Of a DNA stretch of 6,693 bases, positions 1-6,693 are shown piece after piece. Origin of the DNA: Deltaproteobacteria bacterium (GTDB lineage Bacteria > JAUYMQ01). Where the stretch lies: the NCBI GenBank assembly GCA_030698575.1, contig JAUYMQ010000485.1:1-6693 (forward strand), given 5' to 3'. The stretch's first letter is position 1, and each line of letters begins with the position of its first letter. The translations under genes and the position numbers were made by a program. The notes beneath the pieces were generated by a model. That model saw nothing but the letters and a program-made list of their open reading frames with translations. It was not told the origin of the DNA and searched no databases.

Positions 1-334
1 CCACTGGCGGCTCGAGCTCGAAGCCGGCCGGCAGCCGCGCGAACCAGAAGTCGAGTCGCGATCCCTCGACCGAGACCTGCACGACCAGGCCCCGCCGCAC
101 CAGTGCCGCGCGCACCTCTTCGAAATGGCTCTGCGACATGCCGAGCTGCGCGGCCGCCTCTGCGGGCTTGAGGAACGCCCCATCGCCGTTGTCGAGCTCA
201 CGCAGGAGCTGGAGCACGAGCTTCGCGGACTGGGGTAGCTGATACGAGGCCCGGAACACCGCGATCGCCCAGTGCGTGAGTCGCGGGCAGGGCCGCCGCT
301 CCGGTCGGACATGGCGCCGGCGCCGCTGGGTCAC
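1..334 (-). CDS. Winged-helix/HTH DNA-binding protein, C-terminus beyond window (partial)
   Basis: The reading frame stays open from a GTG at 334-332 to the window edge, giving 111 residues without a stop. The first ~25 residues are Arg-rich. Residues ~30-85 look like a winged-helix fold: a helix (AKLVLQLLREL), then a helix-turn-helix (LKPAEAAAQLGMSQSHFEEVRAALVRRGLV), then a strand-like VVQVSVEGSRLDFWF wing. Third codon positions are strongly G/C, as expected for a real gene here. The GTG overlaps the stop of the upstream SWIM gene as GTGA, so the two are probably translationally coupled, and it is last in a four-gene leftward operon. Such helices occur in phage replication-initiation proteins and in transcription factors; the visible part does not decide between them. 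The DNA-binding role is inferred from the fold pattern. Confidence 0.7.
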   Translation of the reverse strand, partial: MTQRRRRHVRPERRPCPRLTHWAIAVFRASYQLPQSAKLVLQLLRELDNGDGAFLKPAEAAAQLGMSQSHFEEVRAALVRRGLVVQVSVEGSRLDFWFARLPAGFELEPPV

Positions 335-609
335 GCGGAATCCTCGGAGGGTGGGACGTCGCGATCGGTCAGGCCCGGGCCCGCGGCGATCGCTCTCTCG
401 AGCGGGGCGAGCTGTAGATAGGCGGTCACCGCCTCGACGTGCCGGCACGGCCGATGGAATCCGCCAGCCGGGCAATCGCAGCGCACCGCGTCAGCGCTGA
501 TCGTGACGACGTGATGCCGCGCGCTGCCGCGGCAGATCCCGCCGCACGGGACCTCGTAGCGGCCGGCGCCGAGCGGCGTGACGTGCAGGACCGCGCCGGT
601 GGCGGTCAC
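331..609 (-). CDS. Small SWIM zinc-finger protein
   Basis: A 92-aa protein starting at GTG 609-607, which overlaps the preceding gene's TGA as GTGA. The central part contains C44-x-C46-x8-C55-x-H57 (RCDCPAGG..RPCRH), which is the SWIM zinc-finger signature CxCx(n)CxH. It is preceded by two strand-like stretches (LHVTPLGAGRYEV and HHVVTISADAV), the usual layout of SWIM domains. SWIM domains bind zinc and are found fused to SWI2/SNF2 ATPases, transposases and recombination factors; stand-alone small versions are known in phages and mobile elements, usually without a function. The C-terminal ~30 residues are acidic and Pro-rich and probably disordered. Its place between two DNA-binding genes suggests a role in DNA or protein binding, but that is inference. 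Confidence 0.8.
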   Translation of the reverse strand: MTATGAVLHVTPLGAGRYEVPCGGICRGSARHHVVTISADAVRCDCPAGGFHRPCRHVEAVTAYLQLAPLERAIAAGPGLTDRDVPPSEDSA

Positions 610-779
610 GTCTCCACCTCGCGGAGCGCGTTGACCAGGTCGAGCTCACGCCGGACCACGGCGAAGCGCGTGAGGGCCGGATGCACAGTAGGTGGCAGCT
701 CGACAGGCGCCGGGCCTAGTAGCCGGAGGACTCGCGCTCCCCGTCCCGCGCGATTAAGTTTCTGATGCGGCGCGTCCAC
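606..779 (-). CDS. Small hypothetical protein in the RHH-SWIM operon
   Basis: Unrecognised small protein whose TGA overlaps the GTG of the SWIM gene (GTGA). Three in-frame GTG starts are possible, at 800, 794 and 779. I chose 779 (57 aa) because AAAGAG lies 6 nt upstream and it gives the shortest overlap (26 bp) with the upstream RHH gene; starting at 800 gives 64 aa. The N-terminal half is basic with a Leu/Pro-rich stretch (ARVLRLLGPAPVELPP), and the C-terminal half looks helical (RFAVVRRELDLVNALREVE). No cysteine cluster, signal peptide or membrane segment is visible. Support comes mainly from its position in a tightly coupled operon and G/C-rich third positions. Confidence 0.55.
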   Translation of the reverse strand: MDAPHQKLNRAGRGARVLRLLGPAPVELPPTVHPALTRFAVVRRELDLVNALREVET

Positions 780-1044
780 GCCGTGCTCTTTCACTTCCAC
801 GCCGGCCGCCTGCTCGGGCGGCCGTCGCGTTTTCAGGGATGGTGGCCGGCGCGGCCTCCGCTAACACCTGCCGCAGGATCGCGCGCGCCAACCGCCCTGC
901 TGGCACGCCCAGTCGCGCGGCCGTCCGCTCGAGCTGCTCGCGGTCCGTGGTGCTCACCCTTACCACGATCTGCTCGTCGAGCGGCTCGCTACGGCGGAGG
1001 CCCGGCAGATCCTCCAGCTTCGTCGGTGGCATGATCGCGTGCAT
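754..1044 (-). CDS. Ribbon-helix-helix DNA-binding protein
   Basis: A 96-aa protein from ATG 1044 (a second in-frame ATG at 1032 is also possible). Residues ~25-62 fit a ribbon-helix-helix fold: a strand with alternating hydrophobics (QIVVRVS), helix A (TTDREQLERTAARLG), a short turn (VPAG) and helix B (RLARAILRQVLAE). RHH proteins bind DNA as dimers through the paired strands and usually repress their own promoters. The tail (~70-96) is Arg/Ala-rich and probably disordered. It is first in a leftward operon, and its start codon lies inside a 19-bp inverted repeat at 1034-1052, which would suit autoregulation. It is divergent from the HTH/AT-hook gene at 1076. It could be an antitoxin-type regulator, but no toxin is recognisable next to it. 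Confidence 0.8.
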   Translation of the reverse strand: MHAIMPPTKLEDLPGLRRSEPLDEQIVVRVSTTDREQLERTAARLGVPAGRLARAILRQVLAEAAPATIPENATAARAGGRRGSERARRGRAASET

Positions 1045-1052
1045 GACGCGAT
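1034..1052. promoter_or_regulatory. 19-bp inverted repeat over the RHH gene start, putative operator
   Basis: ATCGCGT-GCATG-ACGCGAT: perfect 7-bp arms around a 5-bp spacer. It covers the ATG at 1044-1042 of the RHH gene and ends within the likely -10 box (1051-1056), so a bound protein would block transcription start. The probable ligand is the RHH protein itself or the divergent HTH regulator at 1076; this is inferred from position only. Confidence 0.55.
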
Positions 1053-1056
1053 GATA
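1051..1056 (-). promoter_or_regulatory. Putative -10 box (TATCAT) of the RHH operon, leaderless geometry
   Basis: Read leftward, the sequence is TATCAT (5 of 6 matches to TATAAT), ending 6 nt before the ATG at 1044. That spacing would put the transcription start at or near the A of the ATG, a leaderless message, and no Shine-Dalgarno is visible upstream. There is no good -35 hexamer 17 bp further up, so the call rests on the -10 box and its spacing. Confidence 0.35.
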
Positions 1057-1075
1057 TGCCGTAGCTTTCGAAGTA

Positions 1076-1873
1076 GTGGAAATCCCGAAAATCCCCGATA
1101 AGTCGGACAGGCGACGCGCCAGTTCGGTGCCCCTCGACGGGCGAGCGGTCTACGGGCGGTTGGTGCAGGCCGTCACCGAGCGCGCCGCGAGAGACGGACG
1201 GGTGCCCAGAGACCCATCGAGGCCCTCGGCGCGGTGGACTGGCGCCCGGCGGGCGCTGGCGTGCGCCATTCGACGGGCGGGCCTCACGTGGGACACGGTC
1301 TCGAAAAAGCTGAGGGGGGAGCGCCGCCTAACCCACACCGATCTTCGCGAGATCGCCACAATCTTCGGGGAAAACGCCCAGTGGCTGGCGACCGGTCAGG
1401 GGCCCCACGGCGATGTGTGGATCCGACAGCACTTTGAGGCCCTGGCCCGCGGTCGCGGACTGTCGTTGCCACCTCATCGATCCGTCCCCATCGTCCAGCG
1501 AGGCACGAAGAGGGGCCGAGGCCGGCCAAGAAAACTTATCCGCGGGCGGCGCCGACACCCGTACACGTCATTTCCGCAGGATCCGGCCGCGCTCAAAGCA
1601 TGTCTCGCGTGGCTCGCCCGCAACCCGGACATCATCGACGAGTGGGTCGGAAGAGAGCTTGACCAGGGGCCGCAGAGGCCAGCCTTGGAGCTGCTACTCG
1701 AGGCCGCGCGCCGAGCGGAGGCTGCGGTCGACCGGGCCGCCGCGATCAACCGCCGTGCGCTGGTGACAGAGGTCCGAAGCATTCTCGACCACCTCGGGGA
1801 TCACAGCGAGCAGATGCGAGAAGATGAGCAGCTCCGTCGCACGGCAAAGCGGACCCGCCGCCAGTCGCGTTAG
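1076..1873 (+). CDS. XRE/CI-like HTH regulator with AT-hook
   Basis: A 265-aa basic protein from GTG 1076. Residues ~58-108 fit an XRE/phage-repressor helix-turn-helix: ACAIRRAGLTWDTVSKKLRG, then RRLTHTDLREIATIFG, ending ENAQWLATGQGP, which closely resembles the end of phage repressor HTH domains. Residues 146-153 (RGRGRPRK) form an AT-hook core flanked by basic residues, a minor-groove DNA-binding motif. The C-terminal ~95 residues are predicted helical (LKACLAWLARNPDIIDEWVG, then a long Ala/Arg-rich helix) and may dimerise. It is divergent from the RHH operon across a 31-bp gap and converges on operon B with only 4 bp between stops. The start is uncertain: there is no good Shine-Dalgarno, and a GTG at 1127 is also in frame. 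A regulator of the element is the likely role; target genes are unknown. Confidence 0.75.
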   Translation: MEIPKIPDKSDRRRASSVPLDGRAVYGRLVQAVTERAARDGRVPRDPSRPSARWTGARRALACAIRRAGLTWDTVSKKLRGERRLTHTDLREIATIFGENAQWLATGQGPHGDVWIRQHFEALARGRGLSLPPHRSVPIVQRGTKRGRGRPRKLIRGRRRHPYTSFPQDPAALKACLAWLARNPDIIDEWVGRELDQGPQRPALELLLEAARRAEAAVDRAAAINRRALVTEVRSILDHLGDHSEQMREDEQLRRTAKRTRRQSR

Positions 1874-1877
1874 GCGG

Positions 1878-2084
1878 CTACTCGACCAGTTTCAGCGGCC
1901 GGAGATGGTGAAGGTGCTTCGCCCACCCCGGCAACTTCTTCCGCGGACCCGGATCGTAGGGCGGGGCTGCCCCCACGAGCCCGATGAACGACGGGCCCCG
2001 TTTGCAGGCCGCCAGCATGTCGTCGAGTCTGGGCGGCGACGGCGGCGTGCGCGGCAGCAGCCGAAGCGGAGCCGGACGCGTCAC
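1878..2084 (-). CDS. Small hypothetical protein, last gene of operon B
   Basis: A 68-aa unrecognised protein. The frame is open further upstream (to 2132), but I chose GTG 2084 because it overlaps the TGA of the previous gene as GTGA, matching the other junctions of this operon. The N-terminus is Pro/Arg-rich and contains APLRLLPR, which also occurs in the 33-aa protein two genes upstream (2299-2400). The remainder (DDMLAACKRGPSFIGLVG, then PGPRKKLPGWAKHLHHLRPL) looks like a small folded, basic domain with one Cys and two adjacent His. No family was recognised. It ends 4 bp from the stop of the convergent regulator gene. Confidence 0.6.
   Translation of the reverse strand: MTRPAPLRLLPRTPPSPPRLDDMLAACKRGPSFIGLVGAAPPYDPGPRKKLPGWAKHLHHLRPLKLVE
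2049..2069 (-). repeat. Copy 1 of a 21-bp repeat encoding APLRLLPR
   Basis: This stretch near the start of the 68-aa gene matches 2350-2370 in the 33-aa gene at 19 of 21 positions, with weaker similarity on both sides. Both copies are read in the same frame and give the peptide APLRLLPR. The match may reflect duplication of a short coding segment or constraint on the peptide. Confidence 0.55.
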
Positions 2085-2302
2085 GCCTCCACCTTCAGCA
2101 GATAGCCCGCCTTGACCGCGCGGCGGTGGCACATGGAGCAGTCGTCCGGGCCCTTCGCCTCGAGACGTCCCTGCGTATCACAGCGCGCGCCCGTAAACAG
2201 CCAAGCGCGGCACAGGCTCTGCGCCCCGCGCACCGGGAACAGGTGTGCTTTGCGCGAGAGCGGGGGCCAGCGGTACTCGACGATGATCGCCTCACCGCTC
2301 AC
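2081..2302 (-). CDS. Small zinc-binding-type protein (H/C/CxxC)
   Basis: A 73-aa protein from GTG 2302, which overlaps the 33-aa gene's TGA as GTGA. The same frame is open up to 2521, but that upstream part is low-complexity and lies over two other genes, so I do not use it. The protein has the spaced ligands H20, C31, C55 and C58 (KAHLFPVRGAQSLCRAW, then DDCSMCHRR), plus C41. This arrangement of His, Cys and a late CxxC is common in small uncharacterised actinobacterial and actinophage proteins believed to bind zinc; that comparison is from memory. The C-terminus ends AVKAGYLLKVEA. Function is unknown; its company of regulators suggests a nucleic-acid or protein-binding role. Confidence 0.65.
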   Translation of the reverse strand: MSGEAIIVEYRWPPLSRKAHLFPVRGAQSLCRAWLFTGARCDTQGRLEAKGPDDCSMCHRRAVKAGYLLKVEA

Positions 2303-2400
2303 GGAACGCCTCCGTCGCCCCGCTCGCCGGCGTCGGGTGGCGAGGCCGCGCGCGGCAGCAGCCTGAGCGGCGCCGCCCGCTCGTCTCGGTGGCCGGTCAC
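2299..2400 (-). CDS. 33-aa micro-protein coupled on both sides
   Basis: A very short gene that links the XRE regulator and the 73-aa gene. It starts at GTG 2400, overlapping the regulator's TGA as GTGA, and its own TGA overlaps the next GTG in the same way. The protein is charged and Pro-rich, beginning MTGHRDERAAPLRLLPR and ending GDGGVP. It shares APLRLLPR with the last protein of the operon. Two precise overlaps plus the shared peptide argue that it is translated, whether for its product or for coupling. No family was recognised, and chance cannot be excluded for an ORF of this length. Confidence 0.5.
   Translation of the reverse strand: MTGHRDERAAPLRLLPRAASPPDAGERGDGGVP
2350..2370 (-). 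repeat. Copy 2 of the 21-bp repeat encoding APLRLLPR
   Basis: Partner of 2049-2069 (19 of 21 identical), lying in the 33-aa gene at nearly the same distance from its GTG start. Confidence 0.55.
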
Positions 2401-2600
2401 CGCTTCCGTCGCGCCGTCGGGCGCGCCGGCACACCGTCGCGGCGCCAGCAGTCGAGGAGCAGGGCGACAGCCTCGGGGACATCGCGCCGTCCGGTAGCCC
2501 AGCGGTTGACCGTGCCGACATCGAGCTTGAGCCGGAACGCGAACTGGCGCTGCGAGAGCCCCAGGCGCTTCAGGGTATGGCGGAGCTGGATCGCCGTCAT
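2397..2600 (-). CDS. Small XRE-type HTH regulator
   Basis: A 67-aa protein from ATG 2600; the frame also contains a TTG at 2609, which lies inside the operator palindrome and is less likely. Residues ~8-50 form a helix-turn-helix of the XRE type: LRHTLKRLGLSQRQFAFRLK, then LDVGTVNRWATGRRDVPEAV. The recognition-helix region GTVNRWATGRR is typical, and the tail is basic (PTARRKR). This size is common for phage and plasmid regulators that bind as dimers. It leads operon B, and a perfect 19-bp palindrome lies 4 bp upstream of its ATG, strongly suggesting autoregulation and possibly control of the divergent recombinase operon. No Shine-Dalgarno is visible at the usual distance. Confidence 0.8.
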   Translation of the reverse strand: MTAIQLRHTLKRLGLSQRQFAFRLKLDVGTVNRWATGRRDVPEAVALLLDCWRRDGVPARPTARRKR

Positions 2601-2604
2601 GGAG

Positions 2605-2623
2605 GTCAACCTAATAGGTTGAC
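2605..2623. promoter_or_regulatory. Perfect 19-bp palindrome, putative operator of the XRE regulator
   Basis: GTCAACCTA-A-TAGGTTGAC: perfect 9-bp arms around one central base. It lies directly before the ATG at 2600 and in the divergent gap before the gene at 2691. Its right arm also forms part of a TTGACA hexamer (2619-2624). Size and symmetry fit a dimeric HTH repressor site. The likely ligand is the product of 2397-2600, by position. Confidence 0.75.
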
Positions 2624-2624
2624 A

Positions 2625-2646
2625 TGGCCTTGCGCCATATAGGCCA
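2625..2646. repeat. Second inverted repeat in the divergent control region
   Basis: Arms TGGCCT and AGGCCA (6 bp each) flank a 10-bp centre. It directly follows the 19-bp palindrome and covers the -35 area of the rightward promoter. It may be a second operator or a chance GC-rich pairing. Confidence 0.3.
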
Positions 2647-2658
2647 AAGACTTATATC
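2630..2658 (+). promoter_or_regulatory. Putative promoter of the rightward recombinase operon
   Basis: TTGCGC (2630-2635) and TATATC (2653-2658) are separated by 17 bp, in an AT-rich island that stands out in this GC-rich region. Transcription would start about 25 bp before the ATG at 2691, which has GGAGAG at 2679-2684 as its ribosome binding site. The overlap with both inverted repeats suggests repressor control. Confidence 0.4.
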
Positions 2659-2690
2659 ATAGTGTAGACAACCCAACCGGAGAGGGACCC

Positions 2691-3185
2691 ATGCTGCACT
2701 ACTGGGAAGAGCTCGACGACGAACAGGACGACGAGGGCGAGGAGTGGAAACACGGCGCGCGAGAGGCTGCTGCGTCAGACGGCGAGACGGTCGAGCGCTT
2801 TCTCGCGGAGATCGACGTCGCACTCTACGACCGCAACGGGAACGCCGTCTCGTGCCCCGAGGAGCCCGCCGCATGGCAGCTCGCGCTCTGCTCTGGCGCC
2901 GACTCGGCCGGGGTGTCTGCAACAGGCTCTACGGTCGGCACGCTCGCATCCTCGCACGGTGGCCGCGCATCTGTGCGTGCGGGCGCGAGTTCCGGGGCCC
3001 GCAGCGCACGACGACGCGGTGCCCGACGTGCCGGCGACCGGGCCGCGTGGCGAAGGGAGGCCGTCGATGACCGCCGCCCTCACCATCCGTTCCGGCATCG
3101 CCGCGCCGCTGGCCTCGATCGTCGAGAGCTTCCTTGCTGGCCGCAGCGCGCACACCCTACGCGCCTACCGGCGGGACCTTCATGA
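2691..3185 (+). CDS. Small acidic protein; true 3' end doubtful
   Basis: It starts at ATG 2691 with a good ribosome binding site (GGAGAG, 2679-2684). The first ~60 residues look like a real protein: a very acidic N-terminus (EELDDEQDDEGEEW), then a helical part (DGETVERFLAEIDVALYDRNGN). After about residue 60 the frame becomes Ala/Ser/Arg-rich filler and runs through the zinc-ribbon gene and into the recombinase gene, ending at 3185. That overlap is implausible, so either the real C-terminus is lost by a frameshift near 2873 or the long tail is tolerated. An acidic small protein between regulators and recombinase could be a DNA mimic or an excisionase-type partner, but nothing specific supports this. 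Only the N-terminal part is confident. Confidence 0.5.
   Translation: MLHYWEELDDEQDDEGEEWKHGAREAAASDGETVERFLAEIDVALYDRNGNAVSCPEEPAAWQLALCSGADSAGVSATGSTVGTLASSHGGRASVRAGASSGARSARRRGARRAGDRAAWRREAVDDRRPHHPFRHRRAAGLDRRELPCWPQRAHPTRLPAGPS
2873..3070 (+). CDS. Small zinc-ribbon protein upstream of the recombinase
   Basis: A 65-aa basic protein from ATG 2873, which has GAGGAG at 2859-2864, 8 nt upstream: a strong ribosome binding site inside the preceding frame. The protein contains C34-x-C36 (ICACGREF) and C50-x2-C53 (RCPTCRRP), a compact zinc-ribbon pattern, preceded by an Arg-rich helix-like N-terminus. Its TGA overlaps the recombinase ATG as ATGA, so the two are coupled. Small basic zinc ribbons in this position may bind DNA and assist recombination, but this is inference. 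The frame also extends upstream to 2744, so it could originally have been the C-terminus of the acidic protein, joined by a -1 shift. Confidence 0.65.
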   Translation: MAARALLWRRLGRGVCNRLYGRHARILARWPRICACGREFRGPQRTTTRCPTCRRPGRVAKGGRR

Positions 3186-3994
3186 CTTCGCCCGCTACCT
3201 AGGCGCCCCTGTTCTCGACGCGGCGGCCGCGCAGCTCCTTGGAGCCGCGCCTGGTGGCGCGAACGCGCTGGCGCTCGCCTACCGCGCCAACCTCACGGAC
3301 CGCCAGCTCGCCGCCGCGACCGTCAACCGGCGGCTCGCGGCGCTCCGGTCGCTGGTGAAACTCGCCCGCACCCTCGGCCTTGTGACGTGGACGCTCGAGG
3401 TCTCCGGGCTCGCGGCCGAGCCCTACCGCGACACCCGCGGGCCTGGACTCGCCGGCGTGCGCCAGCTCCTCCGCCGCGTCACCCGCCGGTACGACACCAA
3501 GGGACGGCGCGACCATGCGATTCTCCGGCTCCCTGTTCGATCTCGGCCTCCGCCGCAGCGAGACCGTCGCGCTCGACCGCGCCGACCTGGACCTCGATGC
3601 CGCCACGCTCGCTGTCCTGGGCAAGGGGCGGACGGGGAAGGTTCCGCTCACGCTGCCCGAGCCCACCAGGGACGCACTCCGGGCGTGGCTGGAGGCGCGC
3701 GGGGATGATCGCGGCCCGTTGTTCGTGGACCTCGCCCGGGATCGGCGAGGCGGACGGCTGTCGAGCACCAGCGTCTACCGGATGGTGCGGGCACTCGGCA
3801 CGGCGGTCGGGCTCACGGTGCGACCTCACGGCCTCCGTCACACCGCCATCACCGCGGCGCTCGACCTCATGGGAGACCTGCGCGCCGTGCAGCGGTTCAG
3901 CCGACACCGGGACGTGCGCACGCTCACCCGCTACGACGACAACCGAGCCGACCTCGGGGGAGACGTGGCCCGGCGGGTCGCCGCTACGGCCTAA
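3067..3994 (+). pseudogene. Tyrosine recombinase/integrase with a +1 frameshift
   Basis: ATG 3067 overlaps the preceding TGA (ATGA). Frame one gives the N-terminal core-binding domain (residues ~12-50, SFLAGRSAHTLRAYRRDL; then AATVNRRLAALRSLVKLA) and runs to about 3531. The homology then continues one base later, from CTG 3533 (LFDLGLRRSETVALD), to TAA 3994. Skipping one C of the CCC run at 3531-3533 gives a 308-aa protein, a normal XerC/D-like size. The catalytic residues are all present in the joined product: R162 (GLRRSE), K186 (GKGR), H254 and R257 (PHGLRH), H280 (SRHRD) and Y289 (RYDD). The enzyme class cuts and rejoins DNA through the tyrosine for site-specific integration or excision. 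The break could be a sequencing error, a real inactivation or programmed shifting; the intact active site favours a recent event or an artefact. Confidence 0.9.
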
Positions 3995-4101: not shown

Positions 4102-4692
4102 ATGCCCATGCACGATATGACGATGGGAATGGCGCATGACCATGGCTACCTCTACCAACTCGCGCGCGCGTCGCGGTTCTTTGAGCGGGTCCTTAACCGG
4201 ACGGGCCCGCTAAAGGGCTTGGATCCGTGGATGGTCCGATACGAGGACGACCTGTGGTCCTTTTTCATTCATTGCTGGCACGTTCGAGACTGGATCCGGG
4301 AGGACGACTCGCTCTCGCTGGGTGTTCGGCAGGGGATTCTCGCGGCGGCCAACGCCTCACACCCACTCTGCGTCTGCGCGGATATCGCGAACGGCCGCAA
4401 GCATGCCCGGCTGACCCGGCACCGCGCGGGCGTGGAGCTCGATGAGATGCGCCTGACCCCGACCACCCCCAACGTTGAAGAGCTCGTATTCGAGTGCTTT
4501 CTCTCTTGGGGCCCAGGCGAGGGCGAGTCCATCTCCTCGCTGGATGCGGCGATACAGGCGCTCCGCGCGTGGAAGGAAATCCTTGAGGCAAACGGGCTGC
4601 CGCTACCTGTCGGTTTCCCGAATGACCTTACGCCGCGAGGACAGTGGTTTCCAGACGGGTGGCCGCCGCCACCGCCCCGCGCGAGTCCGTAG
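4102..4692 (+). CDS. Conserved-looking hypothetical protein with WHVRDWI and DIANGRKH motifs
   Basis: A 196-aa soluble protein from ATG 4102; in-frame ATGs also occur at 4111, 4120, 4126 and 4132. The N-terminal part is rich in Met/His (MPMHDMTMGMAHDHG). Residues 16-31 (YLYQLARASRFFERVL) look helical. Two strong motifs follow: DLWSFFIHCWHVRDWI (50-65) and CADIANGRKHARLTRH (92-107). I recall helical WHxxDW plus D-I-A-N-x-x-KH patterns from uncharacterised proteins of accessory regions, but I cannot name a family. The rest has a strand-like LVFECFLSW (128-136), a helix (LDAAIQALRAWKEILEANG) and a Pro-rich end. The paired polar residues (H60, D63, D94, N97, K100, H101) resemble a conserved site in a helical bundle, possibly HEPN-like. 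It precedes the HEPN gene in the same direction, 188 bp away, in DNA less GC-rich than the left region. Confidence 0.75.
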   Translation: MPMHDMTMGMAHDHGYLYQLARASRFFERVLNRTGPLKGLDPWMVRYEDDLWSFFIHCWHVRDWIREDDSLSLGVRQGILAAANASHPLCVCADIANGRKHARLTRHRAGVELDEMRLTPTTPNVEELVFECFLSWGPGEGESISSLDAAIQALRAWKEILEANGLPLPVGFPNDLTPRGQWFPDGWPPPPPRASP

Positions 4693-4694
4693 AA

Positions 4695-4740
4695 CACCAG
4701 CGGGACAGCCGGCGGGTCAGGGCGCGGTACGGTCCTGGTG
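4695..4740. repeat. Inverted repeat after the 4102 gene; possible weak terminator
   Basis: CACCAG (4695-4700) can pair with CTGGTG (4735-4740) around a GC-rich 34-nt loop that can form a small internal stem. No T-run follows, so a classical terminator is not supported. The rest of the 4693-4880 gap holds no gene that I can support; a small CCCTC-GTT-GAGGG hairpin lies at 4818-4830. Confidence 0.2.
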
Positions 4741-4868
4741 CTAATCCGTAGCGACCCGTGGCCGGCTAGAGGTTTCACGAAGGGTACGGAAACACGCATT
4801 ATCGTACTCTTCACAAGCCCTCGTTGAGGGGCGGTCTGCGCGTTGGCTGGGAGGGTGCGGGCACCCTT

Positions 4869-4874
4869 AGGAGG
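4869..4874 (+). promoter_or_regulatory. Strong ribosome binding site (AGGAGG) deciding the HEPN gene start
   Basis: AGGAGG ends 6 nt before TTG 4881. The frame is open from an earlier TTG at 4824, but that has no comparable site, so 4881 is preferred. Confidence 0.7.
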
Positions 4875-4880
4875 AGTGAG

Positions 4881-6146
4881 TTGGACTTTCTTTCTGACCA
4901 TGAGTTTGCCGTTTCCCGCCTTCGCTTGTTCACCGCTCATGGCGTGTACCATGGCCAGGGCTTCGTTCGATGGATTCCGAAAGAGGGGGCCCGCATTTCT
5001 GCTCTTTTCGATAGGGCAGGGCCCGAGCTTCCGTCCAAGATCGACATTCCTGCCGTCCGAACCGGGAGGTTCTGGTCGCTGCGATTCGACCAGATGGAGG
5101 GATACGAATGGGGAATCACTCGCATCGCGGAGCCGCACTTCGACCTGGGTATGCTACTGACGCACACGCTCCGCACGAGAGTCCCGCTGATCCTGCTTAG
5201 TGGCAGAACTCCCGTGACACGAACCCCAAACCCGTCCTGGGTCGGAAGCGCAAGGTACCGAGTGCAGCGTAACACACTGCTCCCCGATGCGGTCGAGGAG
5301 GAAACCACGGTCGCTGGGGAGCGCCTTGGCCGGTCGCTTAGCCGAACTGGGCTGAGACATGAGGAATCGGGGGGACTCCGTCTCGCGGCAAGAATGGAGA
5401 GGCCCGGCATCCTCAGTGCCTCTTGGCGTCTTCCGAAGGCTGCGTGGGAGAAGGGATCCGATTGGCGTTTTGCAGATGCACTCAGGTACGCACTATCGAT
5501 TGTCACGGGGCAGAGCGCGGTCCTACTCGAGCAGCGCGTGATACGCGGAGGGCGAGAGTACCTACAGGTCCTCGCCGATTCGGCCGAGCCCCACTCTCTG
5601 GGCATTCAGGCGCCATTGGCCGAGAGAGGCTTGCCAGATCGCAAGCTCATAATCTCCCTCGCGACATCGCTGGCTCAACAAAGCAATGAAGCGCGCATCT
5701 GTCGGCGGATTTTTGACCAACTTGCGGAGGCTACTCGGCAACACACCTGGGCCGCCCGCGAACTACTCACTGCAACGATTCTTGAAGCGACGCTACGTAG
5801 CCTTGAGAACGTGCCGTTCCGGCCCCGCCGGAAGTGGCCGATCCAAGGTCCACTTGAGCGATTCCGAAAGACCTATCTCGGCGAACCGTGGCGGCACGTG
5901 TGTCAGCGTGTGCTTGCCACGCAGAAGCGCGTCCGCGACCGGAATGCGCATCCAGACTGGTTGGTCGAACCTGGAGGTCACACGGCTCCAGCCGGGCAAG
6001 ATCCTTTGGATGACCTGATCTTCTTGTCCTGGTTCTACGGGTACGTTATCCGAGCATTATCTGGCGAGCGGACGTTGAACCCCCGATTTCCGCGCCCTCA
6101 CTCCGAATGGCGGCCCATGGGCACGGTGCGTTTCGACGCTGGATGA
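4881..6146 (+). CDS. HEPN-domain protein, Apea-like, probable abortive-infection RNase
   Basis: A 421-aa protein from TTG 4881, chosen for the AGGAGG 6 nt upstream (a TTG at 4824 would add 19 residues). The N-terminal ~240 residues are beta-rich and were not recognised with confidence. The C-terminal ~170 residues look helical: RICRRIFDQLAEATRQH, then a helix with E302 (LTATILEATLRSLEN), then HVCQRVLATQKRVRDRNAHPDW. The last holds R352-x4-H357 with R354-N355, the RX4-6H signature of HEPN ribonucleases; a helical segment follows (DDLIFLSWFYGYVIRALSG). In the Apea/Abi class a variable N-terminus senses infection and the HEPN domain cleaves RNA, arresting growth. The layout and length fit, but the subfamily is my inference. 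Codon use is less GC-biased than in genes to the left, consistent with separate acquisition. It converges on another HEPN-type gene. Confidence 0.75.
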   Translation: MDFLSDHEFAVSRLRLFTAHGVYHGQGFVRWIPKEGARISALFDRAGPELPSKIDIPAVRTGRFWSLRFDQMEGYEWGITRIAEPHFDLGMLLTHTLRTRVPLILLSGRTPVTRTPNPSWVGSARYRVQRNTLLPDAVEEETTVAGERLGRSLSRTGLRHEESGGLRLAARMERPGILSASWRLPKAAWEKGSDWRFADALRYALSIVTGQSAVLLEQRVIRGGREYLQVLADSAEPHSLGIQAPLAERGLPDRKLIISLATSLAQQSNEARICRRIFDQLAEATRQHTWAARELLTATILEATLRSLENVPFRPRRKWPIQGPLERFRKTYLGEPWRHVCQRVLATQKRVRDRNAHPDWLVEPGGHTAPAGQDPLDDLIFLSWFYGYVIRALSGERTLNPRFPRPHSEWRPMGTVRFDAG

Positions 6147-6360
6147 CTCCGTTCAGTGTGGACCTGCGATGGGCAACTCGCGATTACTGCGAAGGACGGG
6201 TTCGATGAACGAAGGTTTCTACGGCCAAAGCTGGAAGTCAGTACCACGGACTGCATCACCCTTCGAGTTCCACCGCACCCCTTTGCGGAGTGGCGGCACC
6301 GGGCGCCCGGTCGAGCACAACTTCTGGCGGGTAATTCCCAATCGCCGCGATTCGCGTCAG
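6147..6360. other. Convergent intergenic region with a 14-bp palindrome
   Basis: This 214-bp gap between the two convergent HEPN-type genes holds no gene that I can support. ACCGGGCGCCCGGT at 6298-6311 is a perfect 14-bp palindrome that could form a short hairpin (5-bp stem, GCGC loop) shared by both transcripts. No T-run flanks it on either strand, so it is not a canonical terminator. A weak CCAC...GTGG hairpin lies just before it (about 6271-6293). Confidence 0.35.
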
Positions 6361-6693
6361 CTACGCCGCATCCACCGACAGCAACAGCAACAGCGCAGCC
6401 TCGGCCACTTTGACGGCGTACTCCGCTTCGACGGGGGCGATCCCGCCGGCGGCGCTGCCGCCGTGTCGGACGCCGGGCTCCTGATTCGCCCAAATCCAGA
6501 GCTCCTCGATCCCCTGTAGCAGGGGACTTTGGACCTTCTTTGAATCACGCAGCGCTTTGATGCACTTGCCAAGGGTAGCCGCCGGTTGACCCGTCAGGAT
6601 GCGAGCTAGCTGCTCGACGGCACTCACCGCTTCCTTCGCGCATTTATCGAGGTCAGGCGGAGTCTGCCTCAACGTGTCCAGCGCCTTGAGCCA
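6361..6693 (-). CDS. AbiJ-like HEPN-type protein, C-terminal part (partial)
   Basis: The frame is open from the right window edge (first codon TGG at 6693-6691) to TAG at 6363-6361, giving the last 110 residues. The pattern matches, from memory, the C-terminal domain of AbiJ/abortive-infection-type HEPN proteins: WLKALDTL, then a PD..KCAKEAVSAVEQLARILTG helix, TLGKCIKAL, SPLLQGIEELWIWANQEPGVRHGG (the family's typical G-[IV]-R-H), then VEAEYAVKVAEAALLLLLSV. These domains are all-helical and are thought to act as RNases triggered by phage infection through a variable N-terminal domain, here outside the window. A TTG at 6672 could be a start, but the upstream codons also fit the family, so the protein most likely continues. 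The LLLLL tract comes from a CAA/CAG-like repeat at 6378-6394. Confidence 0.75.
   Translation of the reverse strand, partial: WLKALDTLRQTPPDLDKCAKEAVSAVEQLARILTGQPAATLGKCIKALRDSKKVQSPLLQGIEELWIWANQEPGVRHGGSAAGGIAPVEAEYAVKVAEAALLLLLSVDAA

Follow-up and report, generated by a model that had tools for sequence, protein, structure and literature searches.

The window, that is, the whole stretch of DNA analysed here, is a complete contig of 6693 bp from a genome of 4.13 Mb in 653 contigs. Its GC content of 67% is like that of other sampled contigs of the same genome (0.61–0.68); the first 4 kb have 71% GC and the sequence from 4 kb onward 62%. A search against Rfam gave no match anywhere in the window, and a scan of it for promoters and terminators returned results at chance level. 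Positions 1–3000 contain accessory-looking small regulators, namely a SWIM zinc finger protein (331–609, − strand), a phage-repressor-like HTH protein (1076–1873, + strand) and an XRE HTH protein (2397–2609, − strand). The features that follow them are listed in Table 1.

Table 1. Genes, domains and motifs in the 6693 bp window.
Feature	Positions	Strand	Basis
Tyrosine recombinase, frame broken near 3510–3530	3067–3994	+	PF00589; in-frame stop when read from 3067
Protein of 196 aa; its small plasmid/phage family is unnamed and conserves HxxDW and ADxANxxKH	4102–4692	+	Sequence relatives
AGGAGG, Shine-Dalgarno-like	4869–4874	+	6 nt upstream of TTG start; read from sequence
421-aa protein, predicted beta-rich N-terminal part and C-terminal HEPN domain	4881–6146	+	ORF, homologues, AlphaFold model
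N-terminal beta-rich region, residues 1–231, putative sensor/regulatory	4881–5573	+	Model secondary structure; without Pfam match
Predicted HEPN domain, residues 268–395	5682–6065	+	VIA-align to human sacsin HEPN (3o10)
E302-x3-R306, HEPN Ex3[KR] signature	5784–5798	+	Invariant in 9/9 full-length homologues
R352-D-R-N-A-H357 (RDRNAH), predicted HEPN Rx4H catalytic signature	5934–5951	+	R352 and H357 invariant in 9/9 full-length homologues
AbiJ-NTD4-type HEPN protein (PADLOC PDC-S32), C-terminal 110 aa	6361–6693	−	PADLOC profile; cut by contig end

A first-pass annotation of this DNA had proposed that three ORFs, those of the 196-aa, 421-aa and AbiJ-type proteins, form a defence locus carried as cargo by the element to which the recombinase belongs. 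The recombinase itself is recognizable, since its catalytic C-terminal half (ORF 3515–3994, frame 2) matches PF00589 with an E value of 3.5e-18, but the gene is split, its first part running from 3067 in frame 1; the break may stem from a genuine mutation or from misassembly. The cargo proposal found no support: the recombinase gene lacks an intact frame, neither ends nor boundaries of an element were found in the window, and the contig stops at 6693. Overall, the window has the appearance of mobile or accessory DNA.

The partial ORF at the contig end belongs to the AbiJ-NTD4/PDC-S32 type (E 2.2e-19 over residues 4–94 against the PADLOC profile), and the N-terminus of the window copy lies past the end of the contig. 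Related AbiJ-NTD4 proteins (PF18863) are encoded on plasmids, with the AbiJ_NTD4 N-terminal domain present in two of them (L015 and L016). The G-V-R-H pattern by which this converging protein had been noticed is indeed there and corresponds to the C-terminal signature of AbiJ-NTD4/PDC-S32. Its designation as HEPN-type holds at the level of the profile, but alanine occupies the position of the canonical Rx4-6H arginine (ANQEPGVRHG, compared with RNRTPGVGHG in an Achromobacter relative), and the activity of the window copy is therefore uncertain. The same arginine is missing in most aligned relatives as well, which leaves membership in the type unaffected. Genes of this type occur on plasmids of four genera (L015, L069, L070 and L071), each near a recombinase or integrase gene.

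The 196-aa protein was unmatched in Pfam, NCBIfam, PADLOC and PHROG. Its relatives are encoded on plasmids of Paraburkholderia, Pseudarthrobacter and Streptomyces and at positions 1198–1725 of an IMG/VR phage contig (L072) that carries lysis and tail genes (identified by eye). On that contig the gene stands alone on the strand opposite to the lysis and tail genes, like a moron gene.

The 421-aa ORF that had been singled out for an R352/H357 pair near its C-terminus is present, opening with a TTG codon at 4881 and closing with a stop that ends at 6146. Profile searches found no model for its family in Pfam, NCBIfam, PADLOC or PHROGs, and the remark that its N-terminal part resembles no named family was likewise borne out against these four collections. 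The Rx4H motif was a poorer guide than had been assumed. In this arginine-rich protein it occurs five times, shuffled versions average 1.5, and 80% of the shuffles have at least one, so that the motif alone is at chance level and was rejected as evidence for a HEPN domain. What lends meaning to the copy at R352/H357 is its invariance in homologues; the other four copies are unconserved.

These homologues were collected in two ways. A pattern scan of the genomes of 84,980 species yielded four near-full-length relatives, from the cyanobacteria Oculatella, Nodosilinea and Planktothrix and from one Gemmatimonadota MAG, and searching one cyanobacterial order with a profile brought in another four full-length genes and several remnants. 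The resulting set of nine full-length sequences comprises the window protein, seven cyanobacterial sequences and one from Gemmatimonadota, the eight homologues being 27–33% identical to the window protein. Thirty-six columns are invariant in this set, eight of them within residues 352–361, and Arg352, His357, Glu302 and Arg306 are all among the thirty-six. The residue after Arg352 is Asp, His or Thr, giving the family motif R[DHT]RNAHPD. HEPN RNases are characterized by two signatures, Ex3[KR] and an Rx4-6H whose arginine is followed by a polar residue, the former signature occurring in many, not all, HEPN families (Anantharaman et al., 2013; PMC3710099). When the invariant residues were shuffled among the 36 positions, both signatures arose in 0.125% of trials.

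An AlphaFold model of the 421-aa protein reached a pLDDT of 61 from five sequences and a pLDDT of 79.9 with a pTM of 0.81 from nine. In the model, residues 1–185 are nearly all strands, followed by a helix and a hairpin, and a helical domain begins at residue 254. The N-terminal region (residues 1–231) comprises about 12 strands, one helix at 193–209 and the hairpin at 214–231; the ∼235 N-terminal residues are thus predicted to be beta-rich and not helical. Foldseek found no significant match for the full model in the PDB or among viral structures. VIA-align matches for the N-terminal part (flavin monooxygenase sheets, reovirus sigma1 heads and PilZ-like proteins) are scattered, with all Z scores below 6, and were not taken as homology.

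Structural comparison of residues 268–395 with VIA-align gave as top match the HEPN domain of human sacsin (3o10; Z 8.6, rmsd 3.7, 121/136 residues), well ahead of the next helical match, the vinculin tail (Z 5.6); the Escherichia coli HEPN RNase RnlA scored Z 5.0. The weaker first model had already placed two HEPN RNases, RnlA and LsoA, among the top matches of this domain. A Z score of 8.6 is under the level at which helical bundles can safely be assigned by fold alone; the assignment is made because the fold match agrees with two independent sequence signatures. The loop that follows His357 (residues 357–372) is modelled with low confidence. No curated HEPN profile in Pfam, NCBIfam or PADLOC matched the protein. 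Such profiles describe known subfamilies, and the miss therefore favours a new subfamily over absence of the fold. Taking the predicted fold together with the fully conserved Arg/His pair, we regard the C-terminal domain as very probably HEPN in spite of the profile result, and “new sensor-HEPN combination”, as the protein had been called, is a fair description of an N-terminal part without a named family joined to a predicted HEPN fold in which both signatures are invariant.

Sacsin informs the fold and not the function, as the two domains share 8% identity and that of sacsin is part of a very large human protein. RnlA and LsoA (RNase LS) resemble the window protein in having a C-terminal HEPN RNase domain, to which the structural match is moderate, but their N-terminal domains are unlike that of the 421-aa protein; no RnlB-like antitoxin was seen beside the homologues in gene listings or in Pfam searches of the neighbours.

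The closest parallel in architecture is ApeA, likewise a single protein of similar size with a beta-rich N-terminus, a C-terminal HEPN domain, and an acidic residue upstream of Rx4H. ApeA-NTD1 consists mostly of beta strands (PMC3710099), and the model of the window protein has this ApeA-type layout of a mostly beta N-terminal domain followed by a C-terminal HEPN domain. Inspection of both families found short strands around an N-terminal G-x-G-x-x-x-W-x-P and an acid-bearing helix before Rx4H. The motif itself differs, reading RNYLTH in ApeA and R[DHT]RNAHPD in the 421-aa family. One explanation for the resemblance is that the family is a true ApeA whose ApeA_NTD1 and HEPN_Apea domains have drifted past profile recognition, in which case its mechanism would be exactly that of ApeA. 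The identical domain order and similar length (413–478 aa for the family, 462–538 aa for ApeA) agree with this, and weak profile alignments place ILEATLR in register with the ApeA ESYHRR helix and DALRYALSIVTGQ in register with the matching ApeA segment. Searches with ApeA_NTD1 (PF18862) and HEPN_Apea (PF18739) nevertheless gave no match to the 421-aa protein at E ≤ 1. In a profile–profile comparison against 9–12 ApeA sequences, cyanobacterial proteins with these domains, shuffled profiles serving as decoys reached the full-length score in 10 of 100 cases and the C-terminal score in 17 of 100; the N-terminal score was matched by only 2 of 100 decoys, but with a hit that covers just 14 columns at the wrong position. 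Moreover, the PF18739 match in the Oculatella genome is another gene, so that this organism carries a genuine HEPN_Apea gene separate from its member of the 421-aa family. A sequence search of the PDB found no ApeA structure, and ApeA therefore could not have shown up in the fold search. Divergence from ApeA is unlikely in our estimation; with no profile match and profile–profile scores within the decoy range, membership is rejected on present evidence, and we describe the protein as ApeA-like in layout but not a member of ApeA.

The 421-aa family is rare and patchily distributed, with remnants. Among 386 cyanobacterial genomes drawn initially there was one complete gene and a single remnant; within one cyanobacterial order, 388 genomes contained five full genes and three remnants, and the phylum of the Gemmatimonadota hit contained one family gene in 395 genomes. 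Searches of viral contigs, phages and plasmids found no relatives. The Oculatella gene shares 74% identity with that of Planktothrix, yet the two hosts belong to different families and the neighbourhoods differ, which points to lateral transfer and spread of the family.

The genomic settings of the homologues only partly resemble the mobile defence islands that had been anticipated. In a 21 kb stretch of Planktothrix (L006), the family gene directly adjoins the tniQ, tnsC and fused tnsA-tnsB genes of a Tn7-like element, and a CRISPR array (1012–1794, 11 repeats) and Csx3-AAA lie within 9 kb of it. In Nodosilinea (L005), its surroundings are rich in insertion sequences and include a reverse transcriptase of the group II intron type (identified by eye), and in Oculatella it belongs to an RNA-repair cluster. 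The other cyanobacterial homologues (L024–L027), by contrast, are solitary insertions among ordinary chromosomal genes, outside defence islands. No neighbour of the family gene is constant across the homologue loci, and the gene is therefore read as a one-gene module.

The Oculatella locus (L004, 3134–15365) bears on a different function, in which the HEPN ribonuclease would act in stress and RNA repair, cleaving tRNA that is then repaired, and not in phage defence. There the family gene is flanked by a VWA gene on one side and KptA/Tpt1 (RNA 2′-phosphotransferase) on the other, with NADAR and ThiF nearby and about 25 tRNA genes at 3.1–7.1 kb, 2.9–7 kb upstream, a neighbourhood of RNA-repair/ADP-ribose-like character. 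This setting is confined to one of the nine homologues, however, and is absent from the 74% identical relative in Planktothrix, and we judge the repair function rather improbable. Cleavage followed by repair is an idea that the position of the Oculatella gene next to KptA would make directly testable.

The window neighbours of the 421-aa gene are probably only co-passengers. Neither 196-aa nor AbiJ-type homologues were found near other family genes, and with partners that do not co-occur, the notion of a single three-gene locus was given up. A two-gene system in which the 196-aa protein serves the HEPN gene as antitoxin or partner is very improbable: the gene of the 196-aa protein lies immediately upstream on the same strand with a gap of 188 nt, but its family was not found near the other homologues and occurs on plasmids and a phage contig without a 421-aa-type HEPN gene, and the family gene has no constant neighbour.

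The interpretation that we favour, with a probability of roughly 0.6, is that the 421-aa protein is a solitary, self-contained HEPN endoribonuclease with a beta-rich regulatory N-terminus, a one-gene abortive-infection RNase from a rare and unlisted family. By binding a phage-derived signal, the N-terminal part would release a HEPN dimer that it otherwise keeps inactive; the freed HEPN site, formed by Arg352 and His357 and aided by Glu302 and Arg306, would then cut RNA and so arrest the infected cell, the mode of action assumed for ApeA. Deoxydinucleotides, reported for ApeA in the title of a work cited as reference 19 in PMC13405049, are among the candidate ligands. The parts of this proposal differ in strength. 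The predicted HEPN fold and its active-site residues are well supported by the model and by conservation, RNase activity and dimerization are suggested by analogy with the HEPN superfamily, and N-terminal sensing and phage defence are inferred from the layout, the patchy spread and some of the contexts. The abortive-infection reading thus draws on the HEPN fold, the invariant signatures and the ApeA-like layout, as well as on the sparse distribution, lateral spread and mobile or defence contexts (L004, L005 and L006). Against it stand the lack of a HEPN profile match, the middling Z score, the solitary homologues and the absence of phage and plasmid copies from the searches; a role in RNA processing or in a toxin–antitoxin pair could explain the conserved residues as well.

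We propose more tentatively that the proteins constitute an undescribed anti-phage family of ApeA-independent origin, in which a new beta-rich sensor might switch the HEPN RNase in response to a phage-derived small ligand, with pairing to KptA repair in some hosts and RNA cutting that is perhaps reversible. HEPN RNases gain a family that defence catalogues have missed, there being no Pfam, NCBIfam or PADLOC model for it; its predicted active-site residues and the limit of its putative sensor domain can be given. If the family does defend its hosts, ApeA-like sensor-HEPN proteins would be more diverse than profiles show.

Two further observations concern individual loci. In Planktothrix, the CRISPR array, Csx3-AAA, the HEPN-family gene and the Tn7-like set all fall within 16 kb (1012–17012), and a tRNA-like remnant lies at 9723–9795. 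In another pair of cyanobacteria, a C-terminal remnant (L029, 9217–9618) and a full copy (L027, 8881–10200) have the same flanks, a glycosyltransferase gene upstream and a diflavin flavoprotein gene downstream, which suggests that the HEPN-family gene has decayed at one site.
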